Positions 9,874 to 62,671 of a stretch of 64,000 bases of DNA are shown here, one piece after another. Position numbers and translations under genes: made by a program. Position 1 is the stretch's first letter. Every line of letters begins with the position of its first letter. The DNA lies in NCBI RefSeq assembly GCF_949628215.1, contig NC_134298.1, forward strand, positions 434,001 through 498,000, written 5' to 3'. The DNA is from Phalacrocorax aristotelis (Eukaryota; Chordata; Aves; Suliformes; Phalacrocoracidae). The notes beneath the pieces are model-generated. The model ran no database searches. It was not told the DNA's origin and worked only from the letters and a program-made list of their open reading frames with translations.

Positions 9874-10771
9874 TCAAATTTCTGGGTGTTTAGAAATAAC
9901 TAGATTCCATTTGATGCTCTCCCTTAAGGCCTACTTAAACTGTGCGCTCCTCAAGCTACAGATGAATGGATCGAGCAGAGGAGATACCACAGTGTTCAAG
10001 ATGGTCACCACCTTGCTGAGGTCCAGTCTGTTGATCTGGGTGGATGTGAGGTACATGAAGATGCAGCTGCCATACACCATAGGCACCACAGTGACGTAAG
10101 AGGCACAGATGGAAAAGGCTTTCTGTCTCCAGCCACAGAGGTCTGCCTAAGCCAGGCTACCCAATAGGGTGAACAATACTAAGATGAAAATCATGTGCTC
10201 TAGGACCTTGCTGCTTCTGCATTTTAGCTCAATTATTCATGTACTATCATAGAAAAAAAAAGATTACTGATGTTTGAGCCACAGAATGGCATCTGGAAAT
10301 ATACCACTGATGGAGAAAAAATGAGCACAGCCCCACCAATCCAGGCAGTGATGAACAGCAGGCTGCAGACTTGTGAATTCATAATGGTCACATAGTGTAG
10401 AGGTTTGCAGATGGCCACATGCTTGTCAAAGGACATTACAGCTAACAGAAGAAACTCAGTGGTACCTAGCATGAAGTAGAGAAAAGCGTAAGTGAGACAA
10501 CCCCTTAAAGAAATTGGTTTCTTGCCTAAAGACAGGTTGGCCAATGCTTTGGGGATGACAGTGGTGGAAAGCCAATCTCTAAGATGGAGAGGTTCCTGAG
10601 GAAGATGTGCATGGGATTCTGAAAAGGATGGTTTATCAGGGTGATGGTGATGACGAGAACACTAGCTGTTAAAGTCAAATGTAGGCGAGTAACAGGATGG
10701 TAAAGAACACATAGATCATCATCCGCAACACCCAAGAGGATGAACTCAATCACTGTTGTTTGATTCTCCAT
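9874..10771 (-). pseudogene. Olfactory receptor pseudogene
   Basis: From ATG at 10771 it reads MENQTTVIEFILLGVADDDL, then ITLINHPFQNPMHIFLRNLS and ILEIGF (TM1-TM2). A frameshift follows near 10550, after which ANLSLGKKPISLRGCLTYAF, MSFDKHVAICKPLHYVTIMN, and FQMPFCGSNISN (TM3 to loop 2) continue in another frame. The TM5 region is partly missing. The tail reads [20 protein letters not shown], then [13 protein letters not shown], an in-frame TAG, and ALRESIKWN before TGA at 9874. The DRY-type motif is DKH, and the usual NPxIY is DPFIC. Length (about 900 bp) fits a once complete single-exon OR. It resembles OR6/OR11-type receptors, but I am not sure of the subfamily. Confidence 0.88.
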
Positions 10772-29391: not shown

Positions 29392-31912
29392 AATCAGGAA
29401 TTCAACAGGGCAAAGTGCTGGGCCTTACGCTTGGATCATAACAACCCCATGTAATCATAGAATCATAGAATCATTAAGGTTGGAAAAGACCCTTAAAATC
29501 ATCGAGTCCAACTGCTAACCTATCACTGCCAAGTCCACCACTAATCCGTATCCTCAAACACCACATCTCCCCTTCCTTTAAATACTTCCAGATATCGAGA
29601 CTCAACTACTTCCCTGGCCAGCCTGTTCCAATGCTTGACAACCCTTTTGGTGAAGAAGTTTTTCCTAATGTCCAACCTAAACTTCCCCTGGCGCAGCTTG
29701 AAGCCATTTCCTCTCGTCCTATCGCTTGTCACTAGGGAGAAGAGACCAATCCCAGCCTCACTACAACCTCCTTTCAGGTAGTGGTAGAGAGCGATAAGGT
29801 CTCCCCTCAGCCTCCTTGTCTCCAGACTAAATAACCCCAGCTCCCTCAGCCGCTCCTCAGAAGACCTGCTCTCTAGACCCTTCACCAACTTCGTTGCCCT
29901 TCTCTGGAAATGCTTCAGCACCTCAATGTCCTTCTTGTACTGAGGGGCCCAAAACTGAACCCAGGATTCGAGGTGTGGCCTCACCAGTGGCGAGTACAGC
30001 GGCACTATCTCCTCCCTGCTCCTGATGGCCACGCTATTCCTGATACAAGCCAGGATGCCACTGGCCTTCTTGGCCGCCTGAGCACACTGCTGGCTCATGT
30101 TCAGCCAGCTGTCAGCCAACACCCCAGGTCCTTTTCCTCCAGGCAGCTCTCCAGCCACTCCTCCCCAAGCCTGTAGCATTTCATGGGCTTGTTGTGACCC
30201 AAGTGCAGGACCCGGCACTTAGCCTTGTTGAATCTCATACCATTGGCTCTGGCCCAACGATCCAGCCTGTCCAGGTCCCTCTGTAGGGCCTTCCTGCCCT
30301 CCAGCAGATCGACACTTCCACCCAGCTCGGTGTCATCTGCAAACTTACTGAGGGTGCGCTCAATCCCCTCATCCAGATCATCAATGAAGATATTGAACAG
30401 GACTGGCCCAAACACTGAGCCCTGGGGAACACCACCCATGACCGGCCACCAACAGGATTTGACTCCATTCACCACCACTCTCTGGGCTCGACCGTCCAGC
30501 CAGTTTTTAACCCAGCGCAGAGTGCACTTGTCCAAGCCGTGAGCAGCCAGCTTCTCCAGGAGAATGCTGTGGGAGACAGTGTCAAAGGCCTTACTAAAGT
30601 CCAGGTAGACAACGTCCACAGCCTTCCCCATATCCACTAAGCGGGCCACCTTATCATAGAAGGAGACCAGGTTAGTGAGGCAGGACCTCCCTTTCATAAA
30701 CCCATGCTGGCTGAGCCCGATCCCCTGGTTGTCCCGCATGTGCTGCGTAATGGCATTCAAGATGATCTGCTCCATGACCTGTCCCAGCACCAAGGTTAGG
30801 CTGACAGGCCTGTAGTTCCCTGGATCCTCCTTCCAACCCTTCTTGTAGAGAGGCGTCACATTCGCTAGTTTCCAGTCATCTGGGACCTCCCCGGTTGACC
30901 AGAACTGCTGATAAACGATGGACAGTGGCTTGGCGAGCTCCTCTGCCAGCTCCCTCAGTATCCTCGGGTGGATCCCATCCAGCCCCATGGACTTGTGAAC
31001 ATCCAGGTGGAGAAGCAGGTCAGTGACTGCCACCTCTTCAACAACTGGGACTTCATTCTGCATACTATCCTGATCTCCCAGCACAGGGGCCTGACAGCCC
31101 TGAGGATGACCAGTCTGACTATTAAAGACTGAGGCAAAGAAAGCATTAAGTACCTCAGCCTTCTCCTCATCTTTCGTGGCAAGGTTACCTTCCATATGCT
31201 ACAGACCTGGGGCAGAGTGGCTGGAAAGTGCCCGGCGGAGAAGGCCCTGGGTGTGCTGGCTGACAGACGGCTGAGCATGAGCCAGCAGTGCCCGGGTGGC
31301 CAAGGAGGCCACCAGCCCCCGGGCTTGTGTCAGCACTGGTGTGGCCAGCAGGAGCCGGGCAGGGATGGGGCCCCTGTGCTCGGCACTGGTGAGGCCCCAC
31401 CTCGAATGCTGGGCTCAGGTTTGGGCCCCTCGGGACAAGCAGGGCCTTGAGGTGCTGGAGCACATCCAAAGAAGAGTAATGAAGCTGGTGAAGGGTCTAG
31501 AGAACAAGTCTGATGGGGAGCGGCTGAGGGAGCTGGGGTTGTTTTGTCTGGAGAAGAGGAGGCTGAGACCTTATCGCTCTCTACCACTACATGAAAGGAG
31601 TTTGTAGCAAGGTGGGTGTCCCTCTCTTCTCCCAGGTAACAAGAGTTAGGAAAAAAGAAAATGGCCTAAGTTGCATCAGGGGACATTTAGACTCGATATT
31701 AGGAAAAATTTCTTCTCCAAAATGGTTGTCAAGCATTAGAGCAGGTTGCCCAAAGAGGTAGTGGAGTCACCATCCCTGGAGGTGTTTAAAAGACATGGAG
31801 ATGTGGCGCTTAGAGACATGGTTTAGTTGTGGCCTTGGTAGTCTTCGGTTTAGGGTTGAGCTCAATGATGTCAAGGGTCTTTTCCCACCTAAATAGTTCT
31901 ATCACTCTATGC
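29392..31912 (+). mobile_element. CR1 LINE (+), split by another CR1
   Basis: Two pieces of one CR1 are in register: 29392-29451 (CAGGGCAAAGTGCTGGGCC to ACAACCCCATG) and 31194-31912 (ATATGCTACAGACCTGGGGC onwards). Compared with the intact order seen in the neighbouring copy (CATGAAATGCTACAG), nothing is missing at the join. The second piece encodes the CR1 C-terminal region ([33 protein letters not shown]) with drift and ends in the tail TTTTCCCACCTAAATAGTTC near 31905. It is the older of the two because it was the target. Confidence 0.82.
29452..31193 (-). mobile_element. CR1 LINE (-), 5'-truncated, RT region well preserved
   Basis: The - strand reads an RT domain with few breaks: [20 protein letters not shown], then [40 protein letters not shown], and [10 protein letters not shown] (the F-ADD catalytic box), followed in another frame by [20 protein letters not shown] and [20 protein letters not shown]. 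The 3' end is the repeat CATAGAATCATAGAATCAT at 29456-29474. The 5' end at 31193 lies before [13 protein letters not shown], so the endonuclease and ORF1 are absent. It is inserted in the + strand CR1 described above. Confidence 0.9.
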
Positions 31913-33296: not shown

Positions 33297-34238
33297 TCAC
33301 AACTGCCTTAGGGAGCTAGAAAATGCCTTCAATATGCTCTCCTTTAAGGCTTGTTTGACTTGATTGTTCCTGAGTGAGTAGATGTATGGGTTAAGCATCT
33401 GAGTCACCACTGAGAAGAAGAAAGAAAGAACTTTGTCAGAGTCCTTCCCACCTCGCTGTGCTGGGCGGATATACCTGTAAATACATGTGCTGTAAAAGAT
33501 AATCACCACCATGAGGTGAGCTGAGCAAGTGGAAAATGCCTTCTTCCTACCTGCGGAAGATGGTATATGCAAGATGGTGATAACAATGCAGCCATAAGAA
33601 ACAGCAGTTACTATTAAGGTCCCAGGTATGATGATAATTAGTATAATAAGCATCAGTCCTTCAATGAACCCTGTGTCTGTGCAGGACAGCTGCAACAACA
33701 GGGAAGTATCACAGTAAAAGTGGTTCATGACATTGGGACCACAGAATGGCAACTGGACAATCATAATGGTGGGAGGAAACATCAAGAGAAAACTCACTGC
33801 CCAGCAAGCCAGAACCAGCTGGAGGCAAAATCTGTTGTTCATAACTGTTGTGTAATGCAAAGGGCAGCAAATGGCAACGTATCGATCAAAGGACATTGTT
33901 GCCACATGGAAAAATGTGCAGGTACCCAAGTAAAAGAAAAGCAGCATCTGAAGGAAACAGCCAGGCAGGGAAATCATCTTCCTCTCTGTCACAAGGCTGT
34001 AGAGGGTGCTGGGAATGAAGGTGGAGGTGAAAGTGATTTCCAAAAGGGCAAAATTTCTGAGGAAGCAGTACATTGGGGTCTGAAGGAAATGATTCATAAG
34101 AGTAATGCTGATGACAGTAATGTTTCCAAGCAGGATCAAGAAGTAGGCAATCACAAGGAACAGAAAGAGGATGATCTCCAAATGGCGGCTGTTGGTCAGC
34201 CCCAAGAGGACAAATTCTGCTACTGTTGTGTGGTTCAT
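33297..34238 (-). CDS. Olfactory receptor, intact, single exon
   Basis: A 313-residue, uninterrupted seven-transmembrane receptor of normal OR length. It starts MNHTTVAEFVLLGL with an N-glycosylation site at residue 2; TM2 carries PMYCFLRNFALLEI (usual PMYFFL); TM3 end has MSFDRYVAICCPLHY; loop 2 has the cysteines of PFCGPNVMNHFYCD and LQLSC; TM6 begins RKKAFSTCSAHL; TM7 is PYIYSLRN, and the tail ends SSSLRQL. The conserved LEI and SSAGRKKAFSTC features resemble the OR6-type group of class II receptors; ligand unknown. It acts in the ciliary membrane of olfactory neurons through G protein signalling (family knowledge). Codons read cleanly and the start is the first Met before the standard N-terminus. 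As in other OR genes the 5' UTR would lie in upstream exons (towards 34.3-37 kb), which I did not find. Confidence 0.95.
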   Translation of the reverse strand: MNHTTVAEFVLLGLTNSRHLEIILFLFLVIAYFLILLGNITVISITLMNHFLQTPMYCFLRNFALLEITFTSTFIPSTLYSLVTERKMISLPGCFLQMLLFFYLGTCTFFHVATMSFDRYVAICCPLHYTTVMNNRFCLQLVLACWAVSFLLMFPPTIMIVQLPFCGPNVMNHFYCDTSLLLQLSCTDTGFIEGLMLIILIIIIPGTLIVTAVSYGCIVITILHIPSSAGRKKAFSTCSAHLMVVIIFYSTCIYRYIRPAQRGGKDSDKVLSFFFSVVTQMLNPYIYSLRNNQVKQALKESILKAFSSSLRQL

Positions 34239-36159
34239 TGAGATTTCATTGCTAGCAGAAAAAGAAAAAAAGGCCCATTTTGAGAACTAGTGGAAAACAA
34301 CAGAGCACAAGTCAATTTGGCTTTGCTAACTTTAAAGGGCAATGAACCCTTCTAAGAGACTGGAGCAGCCGCAGTAACCACATATTAACAATCTTATTCA
34401 CGTAAACAGAGTCCCAAGCTCCACTTGGAACATTGAGTCCTTACTCCAGTTAAAATTATTCATACCATTCCTTCTGAGTATAGTTGAGAAAGGTGCACAT
34501 GCAGAAACTGTTACAGACCCTAGGACAAATGAATCTCTGAATGGTTTGACAATGTTCACCCTCCATCAAATACAGAAAAAAAGCCAAATGCACACAGTGA
34601 GTACTTTGACTAAGTGTCCAAAGACGTCGTAGTTGAAATTAATTTAAAAGCAGTACTGCAGAGGAATGCACTCACACTGTAGACTGACACTGAAGCAGAT
34701 TAGACTAGTTGGTGGATAGACTGGTTGCATTAGTATTGGAAACAGAAACTTACTGCAGTTAAAAGGAGATAAAAAGAAAATGACAGAGAGAGATAGAGAC
34801 TTTACAGGGAAAGACCAGACAGAAAGATAGCAATGCTACAAAGAGAAGGATGGCTGGTTACCACTGAGGGAAGGCAAAATGCAAAGAGAAAAGAATGGAT
34901 GCTACACCAAGCAAGACTATAAAAGGGGGAAGGAGAAAAAGTATGGGAAAAAATTTCTGTTTACTTTTCATTTACCCTCAGCTCTACAGCTCCAGTGGAT
35001 CAATTCGGATGCTGTTGGTCGTTCTTTCTTCTTCAGAGCACCTGTCTCCAGGTATTCCTTCACCTTACAACATCCTACCCCAAACTCAGACATGTATACA
35101 CCTCCACTGCACTGTGTCTACACTACTGTACTACACTAACATAGTCACCACTGTGGTTGCCATCACCTTGTGGAAGTGAAGTGGAACCTGAAAACTCTGG
35201 CTGACGTCCTTCAATCAAATTATTTTCATGCAGACTTGCAAGATCCCATCTACGGCTTTTCAACTGCATTCTCCCTCATTTTTCTCCCAGACACCAGCCC
35301 TCCTTGCCCTAAAAAGAGACACACATCTTGTTTTACATTCAGATCTCCCAGGTTTTATCTATTGTGTCTGGATCTTTGAATCTGGTTTAGACTTATTTCA
35401 GACTCATTTCAGGTATTTCTGAATGATTGAAATAAACACCAACACAATGAGTTTCCAGGGAAAGCAAGTACATCTTAGGTAGCTCATAGCCCATGCCAAA
35501 CATGCCACTCAACTTTCCTTCTTCAAAAGCTCTTTAAAAAATGCTCAGCAAAAGGGTAGATACAAGTTAGGATGCTACAACCCTTCTTATCACACTATTC
35601 CCATCAAATCTTTCCCCTTTAGTGCCCTTTTTCCAGCAAAACACAGCGTTTTATTATCATCATCTCATAGTTGTTTCTCAAAAAAACACCTTCCCTCTCA
35701 CAAAACATATAAAATAGAGAACATATTTTTTAATACCACACGTGGACAGATATTATCTGGAAGATGAGTGTCCAGTAACAACTAAAAGCTTTTTCTTATT
35801 TTGCAGACTACAAGTTCAGTTTTCCAAGCCATTGTGCCCTTCATCTTTCGTTGTCTACAAAAAATCACACCTAATCTTTAAGAAATGGTCCAAATAGTTA
35901 CCAGTATATCCACAACAATCCAGGATTTTTCAAAAAAGATTCTGAGTCTGATGTTTCTCCTTCATTTAGTTTGACATCTGATCTTTGGCAAATAAATTTC
36001 CTCTCTTTTCAGCTCCTTTTTATAATAGTGGTAGCATATCACATTCTTGTACTTCTTCACTGAGTCAAACCTCAGGGACCAATTAGGTATTGAAATCTGC
36101 CAAAAACCTTCTGGGAAAATGTTTGTGAAAGTTTGAAGAATGACAAGAATATTATCAAA
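34239..36159. other. Gene-free stretch upstream of the OR gene
   Basis: It should contain the promoter and non-coding 5' exon of the OR gene, but no sequence mark identifies them. No repeat was recognised. Confidence 0.4.
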
Positions 36160-42556: not shown

Positions 42557-44699
42557 AATGGGTAAAGGTATTTTGTAAGTGCTGTGCATGTTTGCACAGT
42601 GATGACTGGAGTGCATGAAAGCGTGGTTGGTAAGAATGTTGAAAGAATGTAAATTGTTGATATATGATTTGAATGTATTGATGATGATGGAGGACAGAAG
42701 GGAATTGTCTTGGTGTTGTTCTGCTTGTAGTATTGGGGGAAATGTTTGAAAATGGAAGATGAAGATAAGGATATGCAATTGTTGGTTTTTATCTCAGTTA
42801 ATAGAAAGTGCATATAAGGTATACAATAATAGGGAAGAATTGGAAAGGAAGGAAAAACAGAAGGATAAATTGAAGGATAGAATGTAAAATACTGCAATTC
42901 TAGCAGCTGCCTTTGCTCAAGCACACACTTCCTCTCTGGGAAAGGGTTTCCCAAGAGGGCAAGGGCATGGAAGGGGGCAAAGACTAGGAGGAGATATTGT
43001 CTCTTTGAGGAGAGGTCAGTGTGCAGTTTGAAAGGAAAAGGGACATTGGAAAAATGAATGCCCAAAGAGACAATTGGACCCATTCCAGAGGCAGACTTAC
43101 TTACAATTTGTAAGTACAGAAGATTCAGATTGATGGAGACTAGGGATTGAGAAATTAGATTCCTCAGACAAACCCCTGGTTTCAGTCAAGCTGGGGAATG
43201 AGGCAGTTAAATTCCTAATTGATACAGGGGCAATATATTCTGTACTAAATAGTTGTAAAGTGCCCATAAGAAAATTCTCTATGTCAGTGATTGGTGCCAG
43301 AAGAAAATGATAAGTCAGATCCTTTTTTCAACCTTTTCAAGTGTGAAATTGGGAATAAAATACTTACACATGAATTTTTGTATATGCCAGAATGTCCAAA
43401 TACCTCTGATGGGAAGGGATTTATTGAATAATTTGGGAGCAAAAATAACCTTTTATTGGAACAAAATTTGAGTGCTTACTCCACAAAATAATGCCTAGGA
43501 ACACAAGTATATATGTTACAGGAATTATTAGAGACACAAGGTGCTGGAAATAAAGAGAAAAAAATTGAAGCCTCCTCTGAAATTATGAATGAAGTAATCC
43601 CTTTTGTCTGGGCAAGCAAAAAGCCTGGAAGAGCTAAATCGGCAGAACTGGCAAGAGTGGAATTGAAACGGGGAGCAAAGCTGGTAAGACAAAAACAATA
43701 TCCCATAAAAAAGGAGGCCCATGTTGGACTGGAGCAATGGCAAGGTAAGAAGACCGCCACTACTTTGTTACAATATGTAGATGATATCTTGTTGGGAGCA
43801 GACACAGTTGAAGAAAACTTTCAGCTTATTAAACTTTCTGGGGTTAGTGGGATACAAGGTGTCACAAAAGAAAGTACAATTTATGCAGCAGCAGTACTGG
43901 AGAAGAAAGGACACCACTGGTTATCCCCGAGCAGGCTGGTACAATACCAAGCAGTACTGCCCCAACAAGAAGATATAGCAACGAAAGTGTCCAGTACCCT
44001 GAATCCGGCATCATTATTACCCTCACATGTAAAAGAAAAATTGGCACATGACTGTTTACAAACTCTACTCCAGTTGCTCAAACCTGAAGGATACTCCTTT
44101 ACAGAATCCCAGCTGAGAGCTGTTTACTGACGGAAGCAGCTTCATAGTGAAGGGAGAACAGAAGGCTGGATACACAATTGTCACTCTAGAACAGGAAATA
44201 GAGGCAAAACTGCTGCCAGTAAATACAACTCCTCAGAAAGTTGAATTAATTGCTTTAACATGAGCTCTGGAATTATCAGAAGGAAAGCAGGCTAATGTCC
44301 ATACTGACACAAAATATGCTTTTGGAGTTAAAAATACTCATGGTGCAATTTGGAAAGAAAGAGGATTGCTATCTTCACAAGGGAATCTTATATAGCGAAG
44401 AGATTATTAAATTACTTGAGGAAGTTAGTAAAACTACGGAAATAGCAGTGTTACACTGCAAAGCATGTCAATCTGGGCAAAATGATGTAATTAGAGGAAA
44501 CAGAAAAGCAGACAAGACTGTGAGGAGAATTGCTCTGTCAACAGCTGTAGCTTGACCTTGACCCCAGAAAAAAACTTTAAAGATCGACACCCCTGATTAT
44601 ACAGAAAAAGAAAATAAGTTGGCCAAATTATTAAAAGGCATAAAGACTGCTGAAGGATGGTGGGTAACCCCAGCAGGACAATGCATTGAAACTCCACAA

Positions 44700-46545
44700 A
44701 TCACAGAATGGCGGGGGTTGGAAGGGCCCTCTGGAGATCATCCTGTCCAACCCCCTGCTTGAGCAGGCACACCCAGAGCAGGGGCACAGGGCCGCGTCCA
44801 GGCGGGGGGTGAATGTCTCCAGGGAAGGGACCCCACAGCCTCCCTGGGCAGCCTGTGCCCCTGCTCTGGCACCCGCACAGGGAAGGGGTTTGTCCTCATG
44901 TTCAGGGGGAACTTCCCGTGTTCCAGCCTGTGCCCGTTGCCCCTTGGCCTGGCGTTGGGCACCACTGGAAGGAATCCAGTCTCACACTCTTGACACCCAC
45001 CCTTTAGGTAATTATAAGCATTGCTAAGATCCCCCTTCAGGCTTTTCTTCTTCAAGCTAAACAAACCCAAGTCTCTCAGCCTTTCCTTGTAAGGGAGATC
45101 GTCCAGTCCCCTGATCATCTTGGTAGCTCTCCATGGGACTTGCTTGAGCAGTTCCCTGCCTCTCTTTAATGGGGGAGCCCAAAACTGGACACAGTACTCC
45201 AAATGTGGTCTCACCAGGGCAGAGTAGAGGGGGAGGATAACCTCTCTCGACCTGCTGGCCACACTCCTTTTAACACATGCCAGGATACCACTGGCCTTCT
45301 TGGCCACAAGGGCACGTTGCTGGCCCAGGGTCAGCTTGTTGTCCACCAGCACCCCCAGGGCCTTCTCAACAGAGCCACTTTCCAGTAGTTCAGCCCCCAA
45401 ACTGTACTGGTGCGTGGGGTTGTTCCTCCCCAGATACAGGATATTGTACTTGCTCTTGTTGAATTTCATCAGGTTCCCCTCGGCCCAGCGCTCCAGCCTC
45501 TCCAGGTCTCGCTGGATGGCAGCACAGCCTTCTGGTGTATCAGCCACTCCTCCCAGGTTGTTATCATCAGCGAACTTGCTGAGGTTACACTCTACCTCAT
45601 CATCCTTGTCATTGATGTATATTTTGAACAGGCCTGGACCCAGCACAGACCCCTGGGGAACACCACTAGTTACAGGCCTCAAACCAGACTCTGCCCTGTT
45701 GATCATGACCCTCTGAGCTCTGCCGTTCAGCCAGTTCTCTGTCCACTCATCTAACCCACATTGCCTAAGCTTACCTGGCTCCCATAGCAGTGTCAAAAGC
45801 CCTGCTGGAGTTGAGGTAAACAACATCCACTGCTCTCCTTCGTCAACCCAGCCAGTCACACCATCATAGAAGGCTATCAGGTTGGTCAAGCATGATCTCC
45901 TCTTGGTGAATCTATGTTGACTACTTCTGATAACCTTTTTGTCCTCTACATGCCTGGAGATGACCTCCAGGACGAACTGCTCCACCACCTTTCCAGGGAT
46001 GGAGGTGAGGCTGATTGGCCTATAGTTTCCTGGGTCCTTCTTCTTGCCCTTTCTGAAGATTGGAGTGACATTTGCTTTCCTCCCATCCTCGGCCATCTCT
46101 CCTGTCCTCCACGACCTTTCAAAGATGATGGAGAGTGGCTTGGCAAGAACATTCTCCACCTCCCTCAGCACTCGTGGGTACATCCCATTGGGGCCCATGG
46201 ATTTGCAAGGATCCAGCTTGCCTCAGCCATCTCTGACCCAATCCTTCTCAACCAAGGGGAAGCCTTCCTTTCTTCAGACTTTCTCTCTTCTGGGGGCTGA
46301 GATGCCTGAGGGCCAGACTTAGCAGTAAAGACTGAAGCAAAGGTGGCATTCAGTAACTCTGCCTTCTCTGCATCCTGCATCACCAGGTCTCCTAATTCGT
46401 TCAGCAGCAGGCCCAAAGTTTCCCCAGTCTTTCTTTTACTGCTGATGTATTTGAGGAAGCCCTTGTTATCCTTGATATCCCTCACCAGATTTAGTTCTAA
46501 GTGGGCCTTGCCTTCCCTGTTGCATCTCTGCATACCTATATCCTA
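44700..46545 (-). mobile_element. CR1 LINE (-), inserted in the ERV pol region
   Basis: On the - strand: GFLKYISSKRKTGETLGLLL, then [56 protein letters not shown] and [20 protein letters not shown]. The YLDFSKAFD motif is spoiled (reads FTSTPAGLLTLLW after a frameshift), but most of the RT frame (about 486 codons, 44738-46198) is open. The 3' end is CACAGAATGGCGGGGGTTGG at 44702. The ERV sequence continues on both sides. Confidence 0.92.
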
Positions 46546-48959: not shown

Positions 48960-49950
48960 TCTGGGCAGGGGCCCCTGAAGCCAAGTTCCCACCACCCGCC
49001 TGGGAGAAGCCGGGCATTTCCCTGCGGAACCGCCACCAAACGCCCCGGCGCAGCGCGCAGCCCGGCCGCAGAGCACCGCCCGGCAGCGCCCGCACCGGCC
49101 CGGCCGGCCCCGCTCGGGCAGCGCTGCCCGGGCGCAGCCCACGCCGCCCCCACTGGGCACCGCGAAACGCTGCCCGCGGGAGGGGCCGTGGGGCGCCGCC
49201 CTCCCGCGGCCAGCGCCGCTCGCACCCCCCGCCCACGCCGCCCCCTCCGCGCGCCCCCCCGCACCGCCAACAGCGCGCCCCGAAACCAGGGATGGGGGCT
49301 CCGCAAGGCTCTGCGGGGCGGGCACTGCCCCCGGGTAGCGAGACCCGGCACTGCGGCCCCGGCCCCGGCCGGGGGCACGCTGCGGACCCCGGGAGCCGCC
49401 GCCCGGCTCTCACCGGTTCTTGGAACGCGGATTCCATAATGCCTTCAGCGCATGCGCTGGCTCAGAAACCAGCCCGCCTCTCCTCCCCCGCTACACGTAG
49501 CCGTCCGCATGCGTACAGCGGCCGGCGGCACCTCCCAGTTCCACCCTTTCGCGGGCAAAAGAACTGCGCCTGCACAGTATTCCCTGACCTGGCGGTGAGT
49601 TAAGTGTGCGTCTGCGCGGCCCCGCAATGCCCCGGAAGAGCTTGCTCGGGGCGCTTCCGGCCACCTCATCCCAGCTGACGGGACGATGTCGGGCGCGGGC
49701 TCGGTGGGTTCGGTGGTGCGGCGCTTCCTGGCGGAGTACGGCAGCGGCACGCCGAGCCGCCTCAAGGTGCTGGACGCCTACCTCCTCTACGTGCTGCTCA
49801 CCGGGGCGCTCCAGTTCGGCTACTGCCTCGGCGTCGGCACCTTCCCCTTCAATTCCTTCCTCAGCGGCTTCATCTCCGCCGTCGGCAGCTTCATCCTCGG
49901 CGGTCAGTGCCCGCCCCGGCCCCGCGCGGGGCTCCCCGCAGGCCCCTTCG
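48960..49950 (+). promoter_or_regulatory. DAD1 CpG-island promoter with NRF1-like and ETS-like sites
   Basis: CpG is dense from about 48960 to 49950. Upstream of the DAD1 start there are four NRF1-type elements: the palindrome AGCGCATGCGCT at 49447-49458, CGCATGCGT at 49506-49514, TGCGCCTGCA at 49565-49574, and TGCGTCTGCGCG at about 49607-49618. A GABPA/ELK-type CTTCCGG lies at 49653-49659 and CCGGAAG at 49630. No TATA box is evident. This pattern is typical of constitutive housekeeping promoters. The long open frames on both strands here are GC-driven. Confidence 0.7.
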
Positions 49951-50971
49951 CACCCGCGCGCTCTCCGTAGCAAAGCTTGAGCCTCCCCTAGCGCCCGCGG
50001 GAGCCCCAGCAGCGTCCGGGGCCCCCGGCCACCATAGGGTTGCCTTAGAAATACCCGATAGCGGTACTTGTGGTAACCAGAGGATTCTTCTAGCCGGCCC
50101 AGGCATTCCCCCTCAGCCCAAGGGAGTGACCCGCAGCAGCCCTCAAACCGGCCCCAGCAGCCTGGGAGTGCCTTTGGCAACCTCCAGCCCTCCCCCAGAA
50201 GCTCCACTTCTGCTCCCAGAAACCTGCAGGCTCCTGACCCGGCCAGCACAGGCACGCCGCGGGGTGCTCCACAGCGCTGAGCCTGCAGGGGTCCTGCCCA
50301 CACACACCGCAGAGTCCGGCTCCTGATCAGCCCCAGAGTGCCCTTGCTTCCCTCTAACAGAGGAACAGCAGGCATCCTTTAGTAACCACCCTGTGGTGAA
50401 ACCCAGACTCTAGTAATGACTGCGTTGGGGTGTTGCTTTCCCATAATACCCCCCAAAATCACCTTAGGTTCATAGAATCATTTAGATTGAAGAAGACCTT
50501 TAAGGTCATCTGTGCAGCCTTCCCTGACACACCCAATGGAGAATGTAGAAGTATCCCCCTTTCTATGTGACTCCCATCCTGTTATAAGACTGCTCCCTTC
50601 AGGGCTCACTTGGCCACCCCTGATAATGTAGGGATGTGGGAGAGCTGATTGCATAGAAGCCTTGTGCAAATTCCCTGCCAGTGTCCTGCTCATCTTATAA
50701 TAAAGGTGGACTTACCTTTCCTTGTGGTACCCTGGTGGAATAGTGACCCAGGCTGGGATGGGCTGTCCCAGGAAGACTCTGCTTCCCACCATTACTTCCA
50801 TTTGTGATCCCTAATCTCTCATTCTTTCTCTGTCACGCAGTTTGCCTCCGGATCCAGATCAACCCCCAGAACAAAGGCGAGTTCCAAGGCATTTCACCGG
50901 AGCGGGCGTTTGCCGATTTCCTCTTTGCCAACACCATCCTCCATCTTGTCGTCATCAATTTTGTTGGCTGA
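49686..50971 (+). CDS. DAD1: Oligosaccharyltransferase subunit DAD1 (two coding exons)
   Basis: Exon 49686-49902 and exon 50841-50971 join in phase 1 to give 115 residues. The first exon reads [30 protein letters not shown]-type text ([20 protein letters not shown]) and [20 protein letters not shown]; the second [40 protein letters not shown] and FVG. Apart from two extra N-terminal residues this follows the vertebrate 113-residue protein nearly letter for letter. DAD1 is a small three-helix membrane subunit of the ER oligosaccharyltransferase, which transfers glycans to asparagines of nascent proteins; loss of it triggers apoptosis (established). Donor GTCAG at 49903; acceptor CACGCAG at 50840. 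The start is the first ATG in good context after the CpG-island promoter. It is convergent with TRAC, the same arrangement as in mammals. Confidence 0.97.
50468..50700 (-). mobile_element. CR1 LINE 3' fragment in DAD1 intron 1
   Basis: TTCATAGAATCATTTAGATT, GAAGAAGACCTTTAAGGTCA and TGTGCAGCC form a diverged CR1 end in antisense. The match fades after about 50530, so the upper limit is a guess. Confidence 0.6.
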
Positions 50972-51289: not shown

Positions 51290-54200
51290 AAAATCACAGG
51301 TTGGAAGGGACCTCAGGGATCATCTAGTCCAACCTTTCTAGGAAGAGCACAGTTTATACAAGATGGCCCAGCACCATGTCCAGACGACTCTTGAAGGTGT
51401 CCAACGTGGCTGAGTCAACCCCTTCCCTGGGGAGATTATTCCAATGGTGACTGTCCTCACTGTGAAAATTTCCCTCTGGTGTCCAATCGGAATCTCCCCA
51501 AGAGCAACTTGTGTCCATCCCCCCTTGTCCTGTCCATGTGACTCTGTGTAAAAAGGGAGTCTCCACCTTCTTTGTAGCTGCCCCTTAAGTACTGGTACGT
51601 GGCTGGTACACGGGGATGAGATCCCCTCTGAGCCTCCTTTTCTCAAGGCTGAACAAACCCAGCTCTCCCAGCCCATCCTCATATGGCAGCTTCCCAGTCC
51701 TTTGATCATCTTGGTGGCCCTTCTGTGGACCCCTTCCAGCCTGTCCACGTCCTTTTTGTACAGTGGAGACCAGAACTGTACACAGTGCTCCAGGTGTGGC
51801 CTGGCAAGTGCTGAGGAAAGTGGGATAATGACTTCTTTCTCTCTGCTGGCGATGCCCTTTTTGATGTAACCCAGCATCCTGTTGGCCTTCTTGGCCACAG
51901 CAGCCACTGTTCACTCCTGTTGAGCTTTCTGTCCACCAGGACCCCCAGGTCCCTTTCCACAGAGCTGCTCTCCTGCCAGGTGGATCCCAGTCTGTGCTGC
52001 ACTCCCGGATTATGTTTTCCCAGGTGCATGATCTTACACTTTTCCTTGTTGAACTTCATAAGGTTCTTGCTGGCCCACTCCTCCAGCCTATCCAGATCTC
52101 CCTGCAGAGCAGCTCTCCCTTCTGGAGTGTCTACTTCCCCACTCAACTTGGTGTCATCAGCAAACTTCATCAGGCTACACTGGATGCCGTTATCCAGATC
52201 ACTTATAAAGATGTTGAATAACACTGGGCCCAATATCAATCCCTGGGGGACTCCACTAGTGACAGGTTGCCAGTTTGAGAAAGAGCTATTTACCACCCCC
52301 CTTTGGGTGCGGCCCATCAGCCAGTTCTCCACCCACTGCACAGACCACTTGTCTAGGCCGTAACACATCAGTTTCTCCAGGAGGAGGCTGTGGGGGACCG
52401 TATCAAAGGCCTTGGAGAAGTCCAGGTAGACAGTGTCCAGCCTCCCGCCCCATGTCAACCAGGCAAGTCACTTTGTCATAGAAGGCCACCAGGTTTGTCA
52501 AGCACAATCTGCCCTTAGTGAAGCCATGTTGGCTTTTCCCAGTCACGTGCTTCGTATGACTTGTGATGGCCCTAAGGAGGATTCGTTCCATAACTTTCCC
52601 AGGGATTGAAGTAAGGCTGATGGGCCTATAGTTAACCTGGATCCTCCCTCGAGCGATTTTTGTAGATGGGGGTAACATTTGCCTTCCTCCAGTCCTCTGG
52701 GACATCCCCCGTTCTCCATGACTTCTCAAAGATTATGGAGAGCGGCCTTGCGATGATGTCAGCCAGCTCTCTCAACACCCTCGGGTGGATGGCGTCAGGG
52801 CCCATTGATTTGTGGGGGTCAAGCTCCTGTAGTAGTTCATATACTAACTCTTCCTTCAGCGATGGTGGGTTGGTGTTTGGTTCGATGGGCAATTTTGTTC
52901 CCAAAGCCTGGGACCCTACAGTGCTGGTAAAGGCAGAGGTGAAGAAGGTGTTGAGGACCTCTGCTTTTTCTGCATCATTCGTGATTGATTCTCCTTTTCT
53001 GTTTAACAGTGGGCCTATGTTTTCCTTCTTTTTCTGCTTGTGGTTGACATGTCTGAAGAACCCTTTCTTGTTATTTTTTATGTCTACAGCCAGTTTCAAT
53101 TCAAATTGGGCTTTTGCTTTTCTGACTGCATCTCTGCACTCACTGGCTATGCCCTGTAGTTCTCGGTGGACAATCCTCCACTTCTGCATCTCTGGAATGC
53201 TTCCCTTTTGCATTTGAGTAGACCCAGGAGGTCATGGTTGAGCCATGGGGGCCTCTTGCTCCGCTTACTTCCCTTTCCTTTGTAGGGGATAAATTGGCTT
53301 CGTGCTTCCAATAGACAGTTCTTGAAGAACTCCCAGCTCTCACTAGCTCCTTTGTATTCCATGGAAGCTTCCCATTGAATCCCTCCCAAATGAGCCCTGA
53401 GTGAACTGAAGTTTGCTCTTCTAAAATCCAGAACCCTTGTCTTAGAGCTGACCTTCAGCACACTCAGCAGGATCCCAAAGTCCACAATGTTGTGGTCACT
53501 GCAGCCAAGGCTATCACTAACTGAGATATTACAAAGCTGGCTTTCATGGTTTGTGAATAGCAAGTCCAGCAGTGCCTCATTCCTGTTGGCACATCTAACA
53601 TTTGTATCAGGAAACAGTCCTCTGTGCATTCCAGGAACTTGGTGGATGACATGCGAGCTGCCATATTGTTCTTCCAGCAGATGCCTGGGTAGTTGAAGTC
53701 GCCCATCAGGACCAGGTTCTGTTGGCCAGAAGCTTGCTTTAGTGCCCCAAATACCGCTTCATCGTCTTCGTCATTGTGGTTAGGAGGTTGATAGCAGATG
53801 CCCACTGCGAGGTACTGCTTGGCGATGACCCCTTTGACTTTAACCCAGAGGCATTTGATAGAGCAGTCGCAGTCACCATAGTTGACTTCGATGCATTCAA
53901 GGTGTTCCTTGATGTAGAGTGCAACTCCTCCACCTCTTCTACCTTGCCTGTCTTCACGAAAGAGCTTGTAACCATCCATTGCGATCCCCCAGTCATTTGA
54001 GGTGTCCCACCATGTTTCAGTTATTCCTATGATGTCGTACCCTTCTGAGTGGGCACGGAGCTCCAGTTCCTCCTGTTTGTTACCTAGACTGTGTGCATTT
54101 GTATACGTACACTTGAGGTGATTACTCTTCTGTTTCACCTCTTGGGAGACAGCTAAGGAACCTTTGTCACCACACTGCTTGGCCTGACTTACTCCCCTGT

Positions 54201-54510
54201 TGGATGTGCTGGTGTGAGCATTTTCGCCATGGATCCCACCCCCCAAGTCCTCCAGTTTAAAGCCCGCCTCACCAAGTTAGCCAGCCTACTGCTGAAGATT
54301 CCCTTACCCCTTTTAGATGGATTCCATCCCTCCCTAGCATGTTGCCATCATTGAAGAACAATTTTGCTAGAGGGGCTTTAGGAACTGGAACTCCTGGGCG
54401 GTTTGGAGGCCATGGTATGGCTGGTGTCCAAGCGTCAAGTTCCTCAGCAGATGAGAAGAGGGAGTTTGGGACAGGGAGAGTTTGGTGCTGGGAAGTGGAG
54501 GACATGCCCT
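51290..54510 (-). mobile_element. CR1 LINE, about 3.2 kb, antisense in DAD1 intron 2
   Basis: On the - strand, from 54505: the end of ORF1 (FFNDGNMLGRDGIHLKGV); the ORF2 endonuclease at 53464-54246 (KCTYTNAHSLGNKQEELELR, ITETWWDTSNDWGIAMDGY, LMGDFNYPGICW) continuing in another frame to about 53147; the linker and RT ([28 protein letters not shown]); RT core at 51706-52458 ([36 protein letters not shown]); the C-terminal region; and the 3' tail at 51290-51345. There are at least five frame changes, among them near 53500, 52650, 52450, 51900 and 51600 (a small duplication there). ORF1 is 5'-truncated. It is the longest CR1 in the window. Confidence 0.93.
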
Positions 54511-54806: not shown

Positions 54807-57271
54807 AGTCTTTTCCCTATTGGTGACAAATACAGAGGTTCTTCTGACTCTGAGGGAGTCCCTTTCAGGCATGACTCCCTGTTTTTATGCCCATCCCTCC
54901 CTTTCTACCCAGCAGGCTTTTTTTCTGTGCCTCAATTTTGGAGAGAAGCAGGAAACAAGTTGCCATGGAAACTCAGTTTCAACTCCTTGTTTCCTGCCTC
55001 TTTATGTTATGGAGAATGTATTACCAATGTGCCCCCAGGCTTCAAAGCTGTGGAAAATTTGGGTTAGGCTGTGGTTAGCGGTCATGAACAGAGGGAAGCA
55101 GAGGGTGTCTTCCAGCACACCCCATCTTCCCACAGGCCCATCTCCCAAAGGCATGTGGGGCACAGCTGGATGTCCCAGCTGGACTTACAGGCTCACTAAG
55201 GCCTGGTAGTGATACAGCCACCCTACCACAGTGTTAGCTTTTCTTGAGTCTGATGTGCTGATAAACCTGAGGATGTTAGAAGGGGCCACCCAGCTGTGTC
55301 AGTGCCTCAGACAGAGCTGCACTTTAGCTGTTCTGGGTCCATGGAGAAGCCCACCCCTCAGGCTTAACCTCATTGAAAATCCTTTTCCCTCTAAAGCATT
55401 GAGAAATGCTTAAACTCAGTGCCTTTGGCACTTGGCGGTTGTCTCCTCAAGCCCAAGCTAGCTCCTGCCTTGAGGTCAGATGATGCTTTGTCCTAGTGGA
55501 AAATTACAGCCCTGTGGTGCTCAGGATGAGATATTAACCCCAGCTAGCCCCTCCACACCTTTGGCTGCAGAATTTACCTGGGTTACCTTCATGCATGAGG
55601 TTCCACCCTTATACAGATCCTGCTTCACACTCTTCCGGTTTGCTCTGCAGCTGAAACACCAGATAGATAAAATGTGTGTTGGCGCTATGTGACAAATGTT
55701 TGCCTGCTGGCATCTAGGAGATAAAAGAGAGTCTGATGGCTTCAACCTCTCAGCCCTGGATTATGGTTCCTGTCTACCACCTTTGTCCTTTTAGCATTTC
55801 TAGCTGTGCTGTAGCCATTAAACCCATGAAGTGTGAAACCTGGAGCTTCTAAGTCTCTTGGCTAACATAGGGCCTGAAGAGTGAGGTATGAGGGAGCAGG
55901 GTCTTTACTGTCTCAAAGGATGCTGCCTGTCTGTGGTAGGAACAGAGAATTCGTGCCAGCTCTGATACCACCACCTTCCTCCAGCCCCAGGCATTAGGCT
56001 GCATTTGTTTACAATGGTACCAGCTTTTTACTGCTGGGGAACAGGCAGGAGACTCGACGGCATGTAGGGATTGTAAATGACCCACCGAGCTCTTCTTTCC
56101 CATAGGAAGGGCACTCTCCGAGCCAGGCCCGTGGCAGACACAGCCAGCATGTTCACAGGAGGAGGAACAGTGAGGCCCTTTGCCACTGCAGCTGCCGCTG
56201 TTTGCAAGCTGCGAGTGCCTCCCCGTGGGCCTGTGTGTCTCGGTCTCCCCACAGTTTGGCTTTAGAGAGAGCTCCAGGATGGGACCCTCCTGTGGCCACT
56301 TGTAAGAACTGCACGGGACCGTGTGGAAAAGTAAAAATCATGGGGTTTCTTTGTTTTCCTGAATTTTACCAGCTTGCAATGCCTCTAGTTGCTGTAAACT
56401 CAGCACTAGAATTCAGGTCCTGTTAGAGCTACTCTGACATCTGAATAGGCTTCAAAAAGTCTCTAGACATCTTCAGGCTCTGCTCCTTATAAAGACCATG
56501 CTCAGGTCCCTGTTAAGACTGTAGATGAGGGCAAGAAGAAAGGCTGTTTTGTGTCCAGGGCCATGTTTTTAATGAGATGACAGATGTCGGGCAGGGTGTT
56601 TTCTCTAATAAAATCCCTAGAAAAGATGCAAATTCATCTCCTGCCCATAGGTAGGTACTAGCGGGCAGGAGCTGACACAGGGGAGAGGGTGCTAGAGGTG
56701 GACCATGCCAACAGCTCCTTCCCTGCCAATGTGAGAAGACTCTCTGGCCTGCCCCATCTTCCTCCCTTCCGTTCTGGGTCAGGAGAATTGAAAGGGTTTT
56801 TCTGCACAGATTCACTGCATGTATAACAGGGTGCAGAGGCCTATCAGCAAATTCAGAAAACGTACACACTTCTAAGATCTCTCCCTGCCACCCACCACAC
56901 TCTATATTTAAATACTAATATTTAAATATTAAATATTAAAATAATAAAATAATAAAATAATAAATGATAAATTAATATAATAAATAATAAAATAACAAAA
57001 TATTAAAAACTAATACTAAACACTCTGTATTTTCTTCCCTCCTTTCTCCTGCCTATGCTATACATAGCTCATTCTTTCCTGCTATACCCAAAACAACTCC
57101 CCACACACACCCAAGAGCAGGCTGCGGTAAGGGGGCAGGAAGGGAGGATGCCTTAACCTCTTTCGACTTTGGCCTGTGGTCTAACGTCTGCTGTTCTTTT
57201 CCACATGCTTCTCCTCCTCCCTGCCACGTGCCGCCCAGCCCTGCTCCCCCCACCCCCTGTTTTGCGCTCCA
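54807..57271. other. DAD1-TRAC interval, DAD1 side; no gene recognised
   Basis: No exon, RNA or transposon was recognised; notably free of CR1 and ERV compared with the rest of the window. In mammals the equivalent interval holds the TCR alpha locus control region. An A/T microsatellite lies at 56906-57015. Confidence 0.45.
56906..57015. repeat. A/T-only microsatellite (ATTAAA/AATAAT)n
   Basis: About 110 bp composed almost only of A and T with 5-8 bp periods such as AATAATAAAATAATAAAATA. It lies about 260 bp from the enhancer-like cluster. Confidence 0.9.
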
Positions 57272-57353
57272 CTTTCCAGAGGAAGTGGTTTCTGCGGTGG
57301 GGTGTAGAGGAGCATCAAAAGGTGACCCAGATCTCGATTGTGGCGTCATGGAA
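57272..57353 (-). promoter_or_regulatory. Candidate TCR alpha enhancer core (CRE - TCF/LEF - RUNX - ETS)
   Basis: Read on the - strand (the TRAC strand): TTCCATGACGCCA (57353-57341), a CRE/ATF site with one change from TGACGTCA; CCTTTTGATGCTC (57322-57310), a TCF1/LEF1 site; CCGCAGAAACCACTTCCTCT (57299-57280), containing the RUNX site AACCACT (57290-57284) and the overlapping ETS site TTCCTCT; then GGAAAG. The mammalian enhancer has these four site types in this order, with TTCCATGACG, CCTTTGAAGCTC and a CCACATCCTCTGG RUNX-ETS core, as I recall from the literature. It lies about 3.3 kb downstream of the TRAC transmembrane exon and about 2.5 kb from the end of DAD1, matching the mammalian location. 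In mammals this element drives V-J alpha recombination and TRA transcription in thymocytes. Confidence 0.8.
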
Positions 57354-57484
57354 CTGGTGGTGTGTCCTCTTCCTGCCCCACCTGGGCCATGAGACCCTTT
57401 CCACATCCTGTCCTACTGTGTTATTTCCTGCCTTTGCTTTGCAGCGTGGTTTTTCTCTCTCGAAATAAACAAGAAAGTGCAAAG

Positions 57485-57509
57485 GGGGGGGGGGTGGCGG
57501 GGGGGTGGC
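57485..57509 (+). repeat. G-run
   Basis: Two runs of ten and seven G separated by TGGC, just after a stretch with an AATAAA at 57465. A possible quadruplex; otherwise unexplained. Confidence 0.7.
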
Positions 57510-60500
57510 ACACTGGTAGGAGTTTGAAAGCCTAATATCAGAAAGTGTCTTTGAACTAGACCTACAAATTCAGTGTTTTGCAGCTCACATGCTAAGAGTC
57601 ACTTTAGTCAAACCATTTAACTTTATCTGTATACTCATCTCCTCACTCAGCAAATCTTATCACTGGGGTCCTTTAACCTGGAAAAGACTGAGATGTGGAA
57701 AAGGGAACATGCTGTCCTCCCTCCTTGACCATACAGCTAGGAGTGGGTTTGCAGTGCAACACAAAAAATTTAAGATGGATTTTAATTTTTAAAAGTGATA
57801 CCAAAGGTAAACGAGTGTGGAAACTTTTCTTCCGAGTCCCTGAAGGTTTCTGGAATTAGGTTAATCAGTTGGAAATCTGTGAAATGCAATGACTTGGTTT
57901 GTAATTCAAATATGGTTTAGACAGCTTCATTGAACTGTTTCCCTGTGATGTGACAGACCTCATAATCAGCAAAATGTAAGCTTCAAGAGCTGCCTAGAAT
58001 CTAGCATTTAAAGAGTGTGGACTTTCTACAGCTGGAGAGAAATGAGAGTGACTGTTGTGGCAAGGGAAGAGACAAGAGAATGAGTCTATGAACATCTGTA
58101 CTATTAAATAATATGGGTGACAGACCCAGAAAGTTTGAAGTTGTTTCTTGGCGGGAGGGGTCAGTAACTCTCTGTCACCCTGTGACAGGCCGCCTGCTAA
58201 ATGGTCAAGTAGCAGCACCATGGCAGGAGACCAGGGAGACGTTGTTGTGTTTCTGCTCAGCACTGTGGAGTCAGATCCTGTGGCAGGGATGCTGGCATGG
58301 TCTTCACTTGGGGACCCTGTCCCACATGAAGCACCAGGGCTTTTGGCTAAAAGCATCTGAAGCAGAGCCTTTCCAAAATCAGAGTTCTTTGCAATGGATG
58401 TGAATCCAGCAGGGTGAGAGATATCCCTTAAGGGAAAATCGCCCCCACTAGTCTGGCAAGGCTTTCCCTGCCACTCAGTTTGGGAGCTGGTGTGAGGTAC
58501 AAGCAAGGTTCAAGCTTGCAGGGAGGGTGTGTTTCCTTCAGAGCATCTTTCTCATTCCTCACTCCGGAGGAATCTCTGGTGCTTCAGAAGAAGATGGAGA
58601 AACCGATGACACAAAAGAAGAAAATTTCCTTTCTGGTCTTGCCAGTGACAGACCGAACCTGGAGACACAGGCTGGTTGTTGGTTGGTGTCACTAGTGCAA
58701 AGCAGGTACCATCTCCAGTGACGCTTGGGAGTGAGGGCCATTTAGAGGCAGGATACTCAAAGGTCCTGCATTCTGCATAGCAGTAGACATCTGCATTCAA
58801 GGACCCAGGCTGCTTACTGGTCCTCTCACTGTGGGCAAGCCATATTTTGCTGTTGTCTTCACATAGCACAGAGTCTGCTCTTGGAGAAGTGCTCTTCTCC
58901 GCTTCCCTCCCTACAACCAGCCACCCTGTTCTCACCCAGACACAGCAAGGATGTCCTGGAAAGGGACTTTGTAGCTATTCCCCCTACCCAGCGTGGGTCC
59001 AGCCAGTTATCGCAAACAGCGCCTGGTGGCCAAGCCAGGCTGAAGAGGAGAGTCCGGACACCCCTTCCCTACTTCACCCCAAAGGCGAGGCTCATTCATC
59101 TGAAGGGTACAGCAAGTTCCTTGAACTACAGGTACAAAAGACAAACAAGTTTCTTACTTTTGGTAAGAATTGTTTAATAGCAGCCACAGGCCTAAAGAAA
59201 TGCCAAGACATCAGAGCGGTTGCCAGCACAATTCAAGAACTAGCAGCATGCGACTTTCACATGCATGCACTGTCTCCAAGGAGTGTGCACATGGACAGGT
59301 AAATATTTCAGTTTAGTTTTATGCAATGATATAAAAAAAAATTGGGAAATCTGAGGTGTTTAGAACTAAAAAGGAACAAAAGCAGTTTGTTTTTCTACTA
59401 AACACAAAGCCAAATTCTAAGCTGGTTTAAATTCAGAAAAACTTAAGGCCAGATAGACTTAAAAAAAATACTAAAAAGCGTTCTTTTGTTCTGTGATAAT
59501 GAAGTGAGAATTTCACTGAATTAAGGACTTCTGGGAGACCTAGCAGCATACCTTTTAGGGAGAAACTAAAAGATACCTTGCTCTTGTCTAGGAAAAGATA
59601 GCAGGACATGGTGCACAGCACCCTGAATAAGTCTCCCTCTACTTTTTAGAGTGTTTTATTTGTTACTGAAATGGTGTCTGTGGGGATGCACTTTAAGATG
59701 TGCATACCTGAAAGCTACCAAAGTATGAAAAATTCACATTCAAGTGATATTTAGCATGCAGTTTTCAACAAACAACACTGCCCCAAGCAGAACTTGTGTG
59801 TCATTTTAATACAAGTAATAGTGATGTTTGGCAATTTATAGTTATAGCAAACTATGCGTCATTCAATAAGAGGCATTGTCATGCTAAATAAATCAGGCTT
59901 CTGGGGGAGCAGGATGCTGGAAATTTTAAGCTTATTTTTTAATAGCTTTATAACAATGCAAAATAAGCAATTCAGACTATGATGTCTGGCGTGATATACA
60001 GAAACAGCAAGTGATATGCCTTGCAACAGGAGTGCGTGTTCCCTCTTGCACACAATGCTCTGGTAAAGATTCCTCAGCAGATTTTTTTTTGGTACTTCAG
60101 GGTTGCACCATCCGGTTACTTTAATTCCTGTAACAAAAATAAAGGTATGTTAAATCATTATTTGAGATACAGTCGCAGCCACACAATTGTAGACCTGAAG
60201 TGTCTAGGCAATAGAAAGAGGAGAAAGACACTGGCCCAAAACTAATATATTAGGTCTGAGGTCTTCAGTCAATAAGCATCAAACTTTCCCAGCTGGAAAT
60301 TGGTCAGGGGATGAATCTGATGGATTAATGTAGACAAGGGAAGGGATGGAGGTTGAAATAGAAGAGAGATGTCTAGAAAGAAGAAAGAAGTTAATTTTGC
60401 ATGTGGATAAGGAAAGGTAAATAGACTTGAGGAGTGGGTGAAAACAATGATATGGCCAAAGGAGTGGAGGGGTTTTACTGTTGGTAGGCAAAAGGTGTAT

Positions 60501-60603: not shown

Positions 60604-62671
60604 TCACTTTTTTTTCCACATAATCATCGTCATCAGCACATTAAAAATTATTCCTTTCATTAAAATTATTTTCAGGCCCAGCTGTGATAAAGACATCGTG
60701 TTCAGGTTTTCATCTGTAAAAGTAACAGAGAATGACAGTCACAAGAGCACCGAGATATCCTCGCTTCCAGACAGACTTAAAAGCACTTAGTAATGAAGCT
60801 GTTCCACTTTGTGTGATTGAGTCAGCTGGTAGGCTAGCTAACGAGCCAGTGAGCAGGACTGTCTCACTGAGAGACTTTCATTTCTTCCAGTTGGTGTTTC
60901 ATGGGCCAGGTTTTCATGCAATAACCACTTAATTATCCAATGTGCAAGTCTGCCAACCATCTAACTGTGTTTAAATACAGTGTATTATGAACCCAGGGTG
61001 CTGGAGGCATCCCGCCTTCCTCTCCCTAAAATTTTTTAAGATGGGCAGGGGGCAAAACAAGTTTAATTTTATTTGATGTACATGACATCTGTTTGGATTT
61101 TCTATTAATCTTAAGTTACAAAGCCATTTTCATTTGAAAATACATTGATCTATATTGGGGAAGCAAGGAGCTGTCATCAAAAAGTCATTTCATGCTTATC
61201 TTTGAGAACCTCTCTCTGAAATGACTGATCAAATCAGACAAGTTTGCTGATGAGTATTTTTCTGAAGTGGTGTTTTGGAAATATTTGGCTAACTGGTTTC
61301 TTTTCAGCAAGGCTGCGTGTTTGCAAAAGTACAGCTATTCTGCAACCAGGCCACATGCAGATGCAGGCTCAGCGCCTTTGAACAAGCAGTGGCAGCAATT
61401 GCGTGGGCTCCAGCACTGGCCAGCATACTCCCACAGCCATGAGCTGAAGCAAAGCCTGCTCAGATGCACCATATCTTTAGTGCAGCCCTGCTTCTGAGCT
61501 CACAATGCAGGAACCACCTGCTTATTTTTTTGGTTCATTAGGTGTTTGTGCACCCAAAAATAAAAACAACTCTTTTGAAGTCTGAAATGCAGGCAGACAT
61601 CGAGCAAGGCTGACTCATATCAGTACCTTAAGTCATTATGTCATGGGGAGTTGTTGTTTGGCTAGTTCTAGCAAGAGCACATAGGTGCTGGCTACACTGC
61701 TCACATAAAATTACCAGCTCAGATCTGAAAGACTACATTAACCCAAGGACTTCCAGCCTTGACATTTAAAGCCTGTGGGGCCCTTTTGGAAATTTCCAGC
61801 CTGAGTTTTTTTCTCCAACAGGAATTCTGCAAACAGGGAACATTAGCAAAAACTTGGGAAGACATTTCCTTTAATCAGGCCGAGTTTTATGCCTAAAGTG
61901 GTGTGTACATACCTGTCCTGAAGTGTAGAGACAACCCTGTAACACAGACAGTGCTGGCACCTGCAGATAGTAATAATAAATTTAATTAATAACAGAAATG
62001 TACTTCTTCAGAAGTTCATAAAGATATCTCTACTTAGAAGGGCTGGATTAGAGTTTCTGGCCAGTAAAGCCTCCCATAAACATTCATTTCTGCTTGTTTT
62101 GGGGCAAGCATAAAATATGATCTAATTAAACTTTAGTGTGCCATCAGACAAAGGAATTTCAAGCTTTGTATCCCCCACAGTGTGATGCTAAGATCTCTCT
62201 GCTGTGACTGTGCCAGTCTTAATCTTGTTTCCACCAAGGAGGAAGGCAAATGAAAACAGAGGCAACAAGGCAACATTCCTCTGGAGTGTGGGAGCATAAT
62301 TCAGCATTGTTTGCTGGGCTGGGAGGTGAGAACAAGTCCTGCTCATACTAATAGCACAGAGACCAGAGTACCTCTAGCCCTGTACACACACCCAACAATG
62401 CCATTACCACTTTCAGGATCCTCGCCCTCCAGTTCTCCAAAGCCCTCGTGATTTGCACCACACTGCATTTCATCTTTCTTGGCCCAGTAGGTTGACAGGT
62501 AACTCGCTTCCTCTTTTTCCTCAGATGTTGCCATCCCCACAACAGCACTTGTGTACTTATCAGCCCAGTTAAGACTAAGCTTGTCAGGGATGTAATCTGT
62601 GATAAGGCACATTTCCAAATCCTCATCATCTTTAGAGGTCAGCCTGTAGACTGAAGGAGATGGAGTAACAT
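60604..62671 (-). CDS. TRAC: T-cell receptor alpha constant region, three coding exons
   Basis: Exon 1 (62408-62671, 264 bp, starts after CATTTTCAG) encodes the Ig constant domain: VTPSPSVYRLTSKDDEDLEM, CLITDYIPDKLSLNW, then EEASYLSTYW and MQCGANHEGFGELEGEDPES; cysteines at about residues 22 and 71 and Trp 36 fit a C1 fold. Exon 2 (61913-61960, 48 bp, CTGCAG/GTGCC to ACAG/GTATGT) gives GASTVCVTGLSLHFRTD, a hinge with one cysteine for the beta-chain disulfide. Exon 3 (60608-60713) gives ENLNTMSLSQLGLKIILMKG, IIFNVLMTMIMW and KKK, then TGA at 60604. Every intron is phase 1, as in mammalian TRAC. The total, about 139 residues, matches the human region. The transmembrane lysines pair with CD3 chains (family knowledge). 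A V-J exon would be joined upstream; none lies in the window. Confidence 0.96.

Follow-up and report, generated by a model that had tools for sequence, protein, structure and literature searches.

The TRA locus of Phalacrocorax aristotelis

In this study, we analysed a stretch of 64,000 nt from Phalacrocorax aristotelis (NC_134298.1, 434001-498000), hereafter the window, together with the genome to which it belongs (1.279 Gb in 352 contigs). The first exon of TRAC was found on the minus strand at about 62671-62408, with 65 of 93 residues identical to the TCR alpha chain 6lir_A, which we take to be the chicken chain; its splice sites were read by eye. The transmembrane exon of TRAC follows on the same strand at 60608-60713 and has 50% identity over 34 residues (E 3.8e-8) to the human tail. 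On the plus strand, the coding part of DAD1 exon 1 occupies 49686-49898 (first codon at about 49686, exon end approximate; Pfam DAD PF02109, E 5.7e-21), and the last coding exon lies at 50841-50971 and includes the stop at 50969-50971. The protein is 81% identical to human DAD1. TRAC and DAD1 thus converge.

Beyond TRAC and outside the window, a scan for J segments returned ten rows, two of which are off-frame readings of neighbours, so that eight J-like segments are left. The scan, run without a shuffled control, required that a heptamer and a nonamer precede a J-like FGxG/WGxG motif. A GT stands at the expected splice donor after each of the eight segments, and the nonamers of two are weak (5/9). 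With its TRAC exons, upstream J segments and convergent DAD1, the locus is TRA, and the placement between TRAC and DAD1 given in the preliminary description of this DNA holds. That the chicken TRA/D locus has DAD1 at its 3' end has already been published (PMC2275272).

The core element compared with mammalian E-alpha

Between the two genes, sites follow one another on the TRAC (minus) strand at 57353-57272 in the order of the mammalian TCR alpha enhancer E-alpha: a CRE-like site, a TCF/LEF-like site and a composite of overlapping RUNX and ETS sites. The positions were rechecked on the minus strand, and the order, the strand and the letters of the CRE are those first described. The CRE-like site is 5.3 kb from the start of TRAC exon 1, lying 3.3 kb beyond the transmembrane exon, and the stop of DAD1 is 6.3 kb from the RUNX/ETS composite; the element therefore lies where E-alpha is expected, 3' of TRAC and before a convergent DAD1. 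With mammalian E-alpha (HS1; the T-alpha1/T-alpha2 core) it shares this place, the strand and the order CRE-TCF/LEF-RUNX-ETS, as well as letters flanking the TCF and RUNX/ETS sites. The TCF and RUNX sites each differ by one base from the strict consensus. The mammalian side of the comparison consists of two printed fragments and the CRE consensus.

The CRE-like site TGACGCCA (57341-57348, minus, within GTTCCATGACGCCA) has 7 of 8 letters of the CRE and retains the half-site TGACG. As had been claimed, it departs from the mammalian form, differing by one letter from TGACGTCA, the CRE of mammalian E-alpha; TTCCATGACG is presumably its flank. It is the core site nearest TRAC, as the CRE is in mammalian E-alpha.

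The TCF/LEF-like site TTTTGATG (57313-57320, minus, within GGGTCACCTTTTGATGCTCC) agrees in 16 of 22 letters with a printed HMG-box probe containing gggcaccctttgaagctctccc, presumably the TCR alpha LEF probe. Its first base is T, not the C of the mammalian site and of the strict consensus CTTTGWW, and its flanks agree with the probe. Ungapped comparison with the printed CACCCTTTGAAGCTC gives CACC[C/T]TTTGA[A/T]GCTC, with two differences in 15 letters. This register replaces the block CCTTTxGAxGCTC of the preliminary description, which was wrong. The RUNX/ETS block is identical to GAAGCCACATCCTCT at 13 of 15 letters. The HMG-box probe is printed in PMC10208975, and GAAGCCACATCCTCT is a RUNX1/ETS1 duplex from the TCR alpha regulatory region (PMC3303851, PMC5322934).

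The composite itself, GAAACCACTTCCTCTGG (other strand GAGGAAGTGGT), lies at 57276-57292 on the minus strand, with AACCACTTCC at 57290-57281 inside CCGCAGAAACCACTTCCTCTGG and then TCTGG. Its ETS part reads GGAAGT, whereas mammalian E-alpha has GGATGT, and its RUNX half reads AGTGGT, whose first base departs from YGYGGT. Printed ETS/RUNX composites include GAGGATGTGG from TCR alpha, CAGGATGTGG from TCR beta and the ETS1 T-cell enhancer consensus CAGGAAGTGG; one ETS-RUNX spacing is described as over-represented (PMC2787013). The bird composite GAGGAAGTGGT is close to the ETS1/RUNX T-cell consensus, and beside CAGGAAGTGG and the printed TCR alpha form GAGGATGTGGC it shows the fixed ETS/RUNX spacing and orientation. 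From the TCF to the RUNX site, the bird element presumably has a longer spacer than the mammalian core. On the two printed fragments only, the element is probably homologous in sequence to mammalian E-alpha.

Relative to mammalian E-alpha, the bird sequence has an additional feature, a second ETS/RUNX composite CAGGATGTGG at 57401-57410 (minus), 52 bp from the CRE in the direction of TRAC. Its letters, read at 57410-57401, are those printed for the composite of the mammalian TCR beta enhancer; that enhancer belongs to a different locus, whereas here CAGGATGTGG adjoins a CRE/TCF/RUNX/ETS core. The string AGGAWGTGG occurs at four sites in the window on both strands, two of them here within 130 bp. 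On the same side, an E-box CAGGTG (57379-57384, minus) is placed like mouse E1. Because single E-boxes are common (6 strand-matches of CANNTG in 401 bp, 4.9 expected), it is weak evidence. Mouse E1 lies upstream of T-alpha1, in the naming that runs from T-alpha1 to T-alpha4 (PMC10358851).

Towards DAD1, GGGTGGGG, GGGCGG and CACGTG follow the core at 57225-57255 (minus). SP1/KLF-like and E-box strings are present beside the core, and WGATAR is absent from the same 401 bp; the group is a possible, though uncertain, counterpart of T-alpha3/T-alpha4, the part of E-alpha that has additional sites for GATA, SP1 and E-proteins. In the 401 bp of 57040-57440 there was no strict TCF site (CTTTGWW), no WGATAR and no MYB consensus, and the window gave no Rfam match at gathering scores. 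An AT-rich tandem array at 56904-57008, about 270 bp from the core on the DAD1 side, might be no more than a simple repeat, or else a matrix-attachment-like flank.

A CTCF-bearing neighbour similar to mouse EACBE was also considered and rejected. With a CTCF matrix, no CTCF-like site was found near the core (best 2.8 bits at starts 57000-57600), and the window maximum was 13.1 bits, against a mean maximum of 13.8 bits in shuffled windows. EACBE is a separate mouse element and not part of the E-alpha core, and the bird core has no such CTCF motif alongside. In the mouse, the histone marks of E-alpha stay unchanged when a 197-bp piece beside it, which carries two CTCF motifs, is lost (PMC7515734).

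Chance expectation and uniqueness

For the comparison with chance, the two printed probes and the CRE were combined into a three-probe score (in order, on one strand, gaps up to 60, maximum 45). The best score in the window was 36/45, at the place and on the strand of the E-alpha candidate; no better match was present elsewhere in the window, the next best being 30/45. A score of 36 was reached by none of 10,000 order-2 Markov sequences (maximum 35), and by 0/500 trials each with order-1 sequences, order-3 sequences and permuted probes. In other DNA of the same genome (23 stretches, 230 kb), the maximum was 31. The likeness to the mammalian element, asserted in the preliminary description, was thus recovered with printed fragments and was far above chance at this place, on this strand and in this order.

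When the CRE is left out, the resulting two-probe score, 29, was reached by 4/10,000 order-2 and 1/500 order-1 sequences, and either probe alone scores just as well on the opposite strand of the window (16/22 and 13/15). Because the two-probe score and the single probes were also matched elsewhere, the strength of the result rests on the combination of probes. The 14-letter ACCACNTCCTCTGG with up to two mismatches was seen three times against 2.36 expected, which is no commoner than chance; with no mismatch it is found at the core only. The triple of sites was seen once against about 0.0025 expected, for motifs written after the window had been seen.

In the 1.28-Gb genome, GCAGAARCCACWTCCTCTGG has one match, and the combined TCF and composite pattern TTTGAWGCTCN{2,32}GAARCCACWTCC also has one, both at the core. 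These two patterns admit the letters of the window and of the mammalian element, so that the fit of the window is built in; the informative point is that no other location in 1.28 Gb matches. In two large microbial collections, the TCF-composite pattern with a slightly narrower gap matched three times. One of these matches falls inside a long coding frame on a viral contig, and the others are on contigs of Amycolatopsis and Paenibacillus; we take all three as chance. A stretch of 381 bp around the core is single-copy in the genome, as far as the search sees, and no relatives were found in a further sequence collection.

Interpretation and neighbouring features

We believe that the element is very probably the bird orthologue of E-alpha and goes back to the ancestor that birds share with mammals. 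This reading rests on the sequence of the element, the order and strand of its sites, its place and its single-copy state, and the bird counterpart proposed in the preliminary description gains support from the three-probe score of 36/45, the TRA surroundings and the single-copy stretch. Also in its favour are the single genome-wide matches of the two patterns, the triple of sites, the closeness of the composite to the ETS1/RUNX T-cell consensus and the second composite nearby. Against it stand the CRE reduced to a half-site, the first-base departures of the TCF and RUNX sites, the missing WGATAR, MYB and CTCF sites, the two-probe score being reached in 4 of 10,000 simulations, and ACCACNTCCTCTGG being no commoner than chance when up to two mismatches are allowed. 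At the base where the RUNX half departs, the sixth position of the composite, A or T can support ETS/RUNX co-occupancy (PMC2787013). Since its key parts and their order match the mammalian switch, the switch is suggested to predate the bird-mammal split. E-alpha has been reported as common to bovine, mouse and human DNA (PMC4289303).

Among the alternatives, the one that survives best is that the bird line built its own T-cell enhancer out of common ETS/RUNX, TCF and CRE sites, one with E-alpha-like function but separate descent. Its site types are general parts of T-cell enhancers (PMC2787013, PMC3744446), and the spacers between the sites show no obvious alignment; however, identity extends past the core motifs, with CACC preceding and GCTC following the TCF site and 13 of 15 letters shared in the composite, and order and place are those of mammalian E-alpha, which leaves this explanation improbable. 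Another regulatory element of the TRAC-DAD1 interval, for instance one that serves DAD1 or corresponds to a different hypersensitive site in the locus control region of the mouse, is more improbable still; mouse HS6 also uses RUNX and ETS proteins (PMC2989920), but the CRE-TCF-RUNX/ETS order and the match to the printed E-alpha fragments speak for E-alpha itself. A chance cluster is hardly credible, for although every motif is common singly and both the two-probe score and the TCF-composite pattern turn up in simulated or microbial sequence, the three-probe score was reached in none of 10,000 simulations and stayed at or below 31 in 230 kb of other real DNA, and the sole match of the TCF-composite pattern in 1.28 Gb falls between TRAC and DAD1.

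The factors CREB, LEF1/TCF1, RUNX1 and ETS1 bind mammalian E-alpha, and the enhancer stands poised ahead of beta-selection (PMC7696796); in cis it starts germline transcription and V-J recombination (PMC10358851). In Jurkat cells, cutting of the CTTTGA site lowered TCR expression, which was almost completely lost in edited clones (PMC11949936). By analogy, we infer the same role for the putative bird orthologue. In developing T cells, an ATF/CREB-family protein would occupy the CRE half-site, TCF1/LEF1 would bend the DNA at the middle site, RUNX1-CBFbeta and ETS1 would occupy the composite, and all factors would assemble as one complex. Such a complex would open the J-alpha array for V-J recombination and drive transcription of the rearranged TRA gene. 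The weakest step of this mechanism is the CRE, of which one half-site is kept. TCF1/LEF1 partner with ATF proteins (PMC3744446), which might make a weaker CRE tolerable, and further strength might come from the second composite.

We raise only tentatively, and consider rather unlikely, a rewired form of E-alpha, in which an ATF/CREB half-site and a changed ETS part go with a TCF-to-RUNX gap presumably about one helical turn longer than the mammalian gap, so that the factors would stay on the same face, and the second composite would offset the weak CRE. If true, this would be a natural experiment on the flexibility of a textbook enhanceosome over some 300 million years.

Mouse and human are the species in which E-alpha, a textbook enhanceosome, has been studied. 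A bird E-alpha with most of the key letters would, if true, place its origin at least in the amniote ancestor and equip avian immunology with a defined switch for the development of alpha-beta T cells. It would also reveal which spacings and sites may vary, a useful test of enhancer grammar. The literature covered, which did not extend to older subscription titles (for example the chicken DAD1 article of 1997 that PMC2989920 cites), contained no report of an avian E-alpha.

Several other features were observed in and around the window. Remains of LINEs, which we take to be CR1, lie at about 51290-54276 on the minus strand, between DAD1 and the enhancer candidate, and at 30101-31198 and 44738-46222, with reverse transcriptase and endonuclease domains. 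Retrovirus-like remains are present at 13640-14014 and 24472-25228 (minus) and at 43492-44555 (plus); the first has an integrase core below the Pfam cut-off, and the other two were judged by eye. In the J-alpha array, a J-like pair with identical letters lies 9,292 bp apart (about 79244-79914 and 88536-89206 in window numbering), which suggests a recent tandem duplication. On the DAD1 side, olfactory receptor genes occur on the minus strand at 33297-34286, with one intact frame, and at 10233-10876, where the gene looks broken by eye; in mammals, the olfactory receptor genes adjoining TRA sit at the 5' (V) end of the locus (PMC2275272). Among the best 120 of 3,821 relatives, those closest to the intact frame (33300-34235) come from birds: it is 95% identical to a flamingo, 94% to an owl and 93% to a gull protein, and 71% to an alligator protein.
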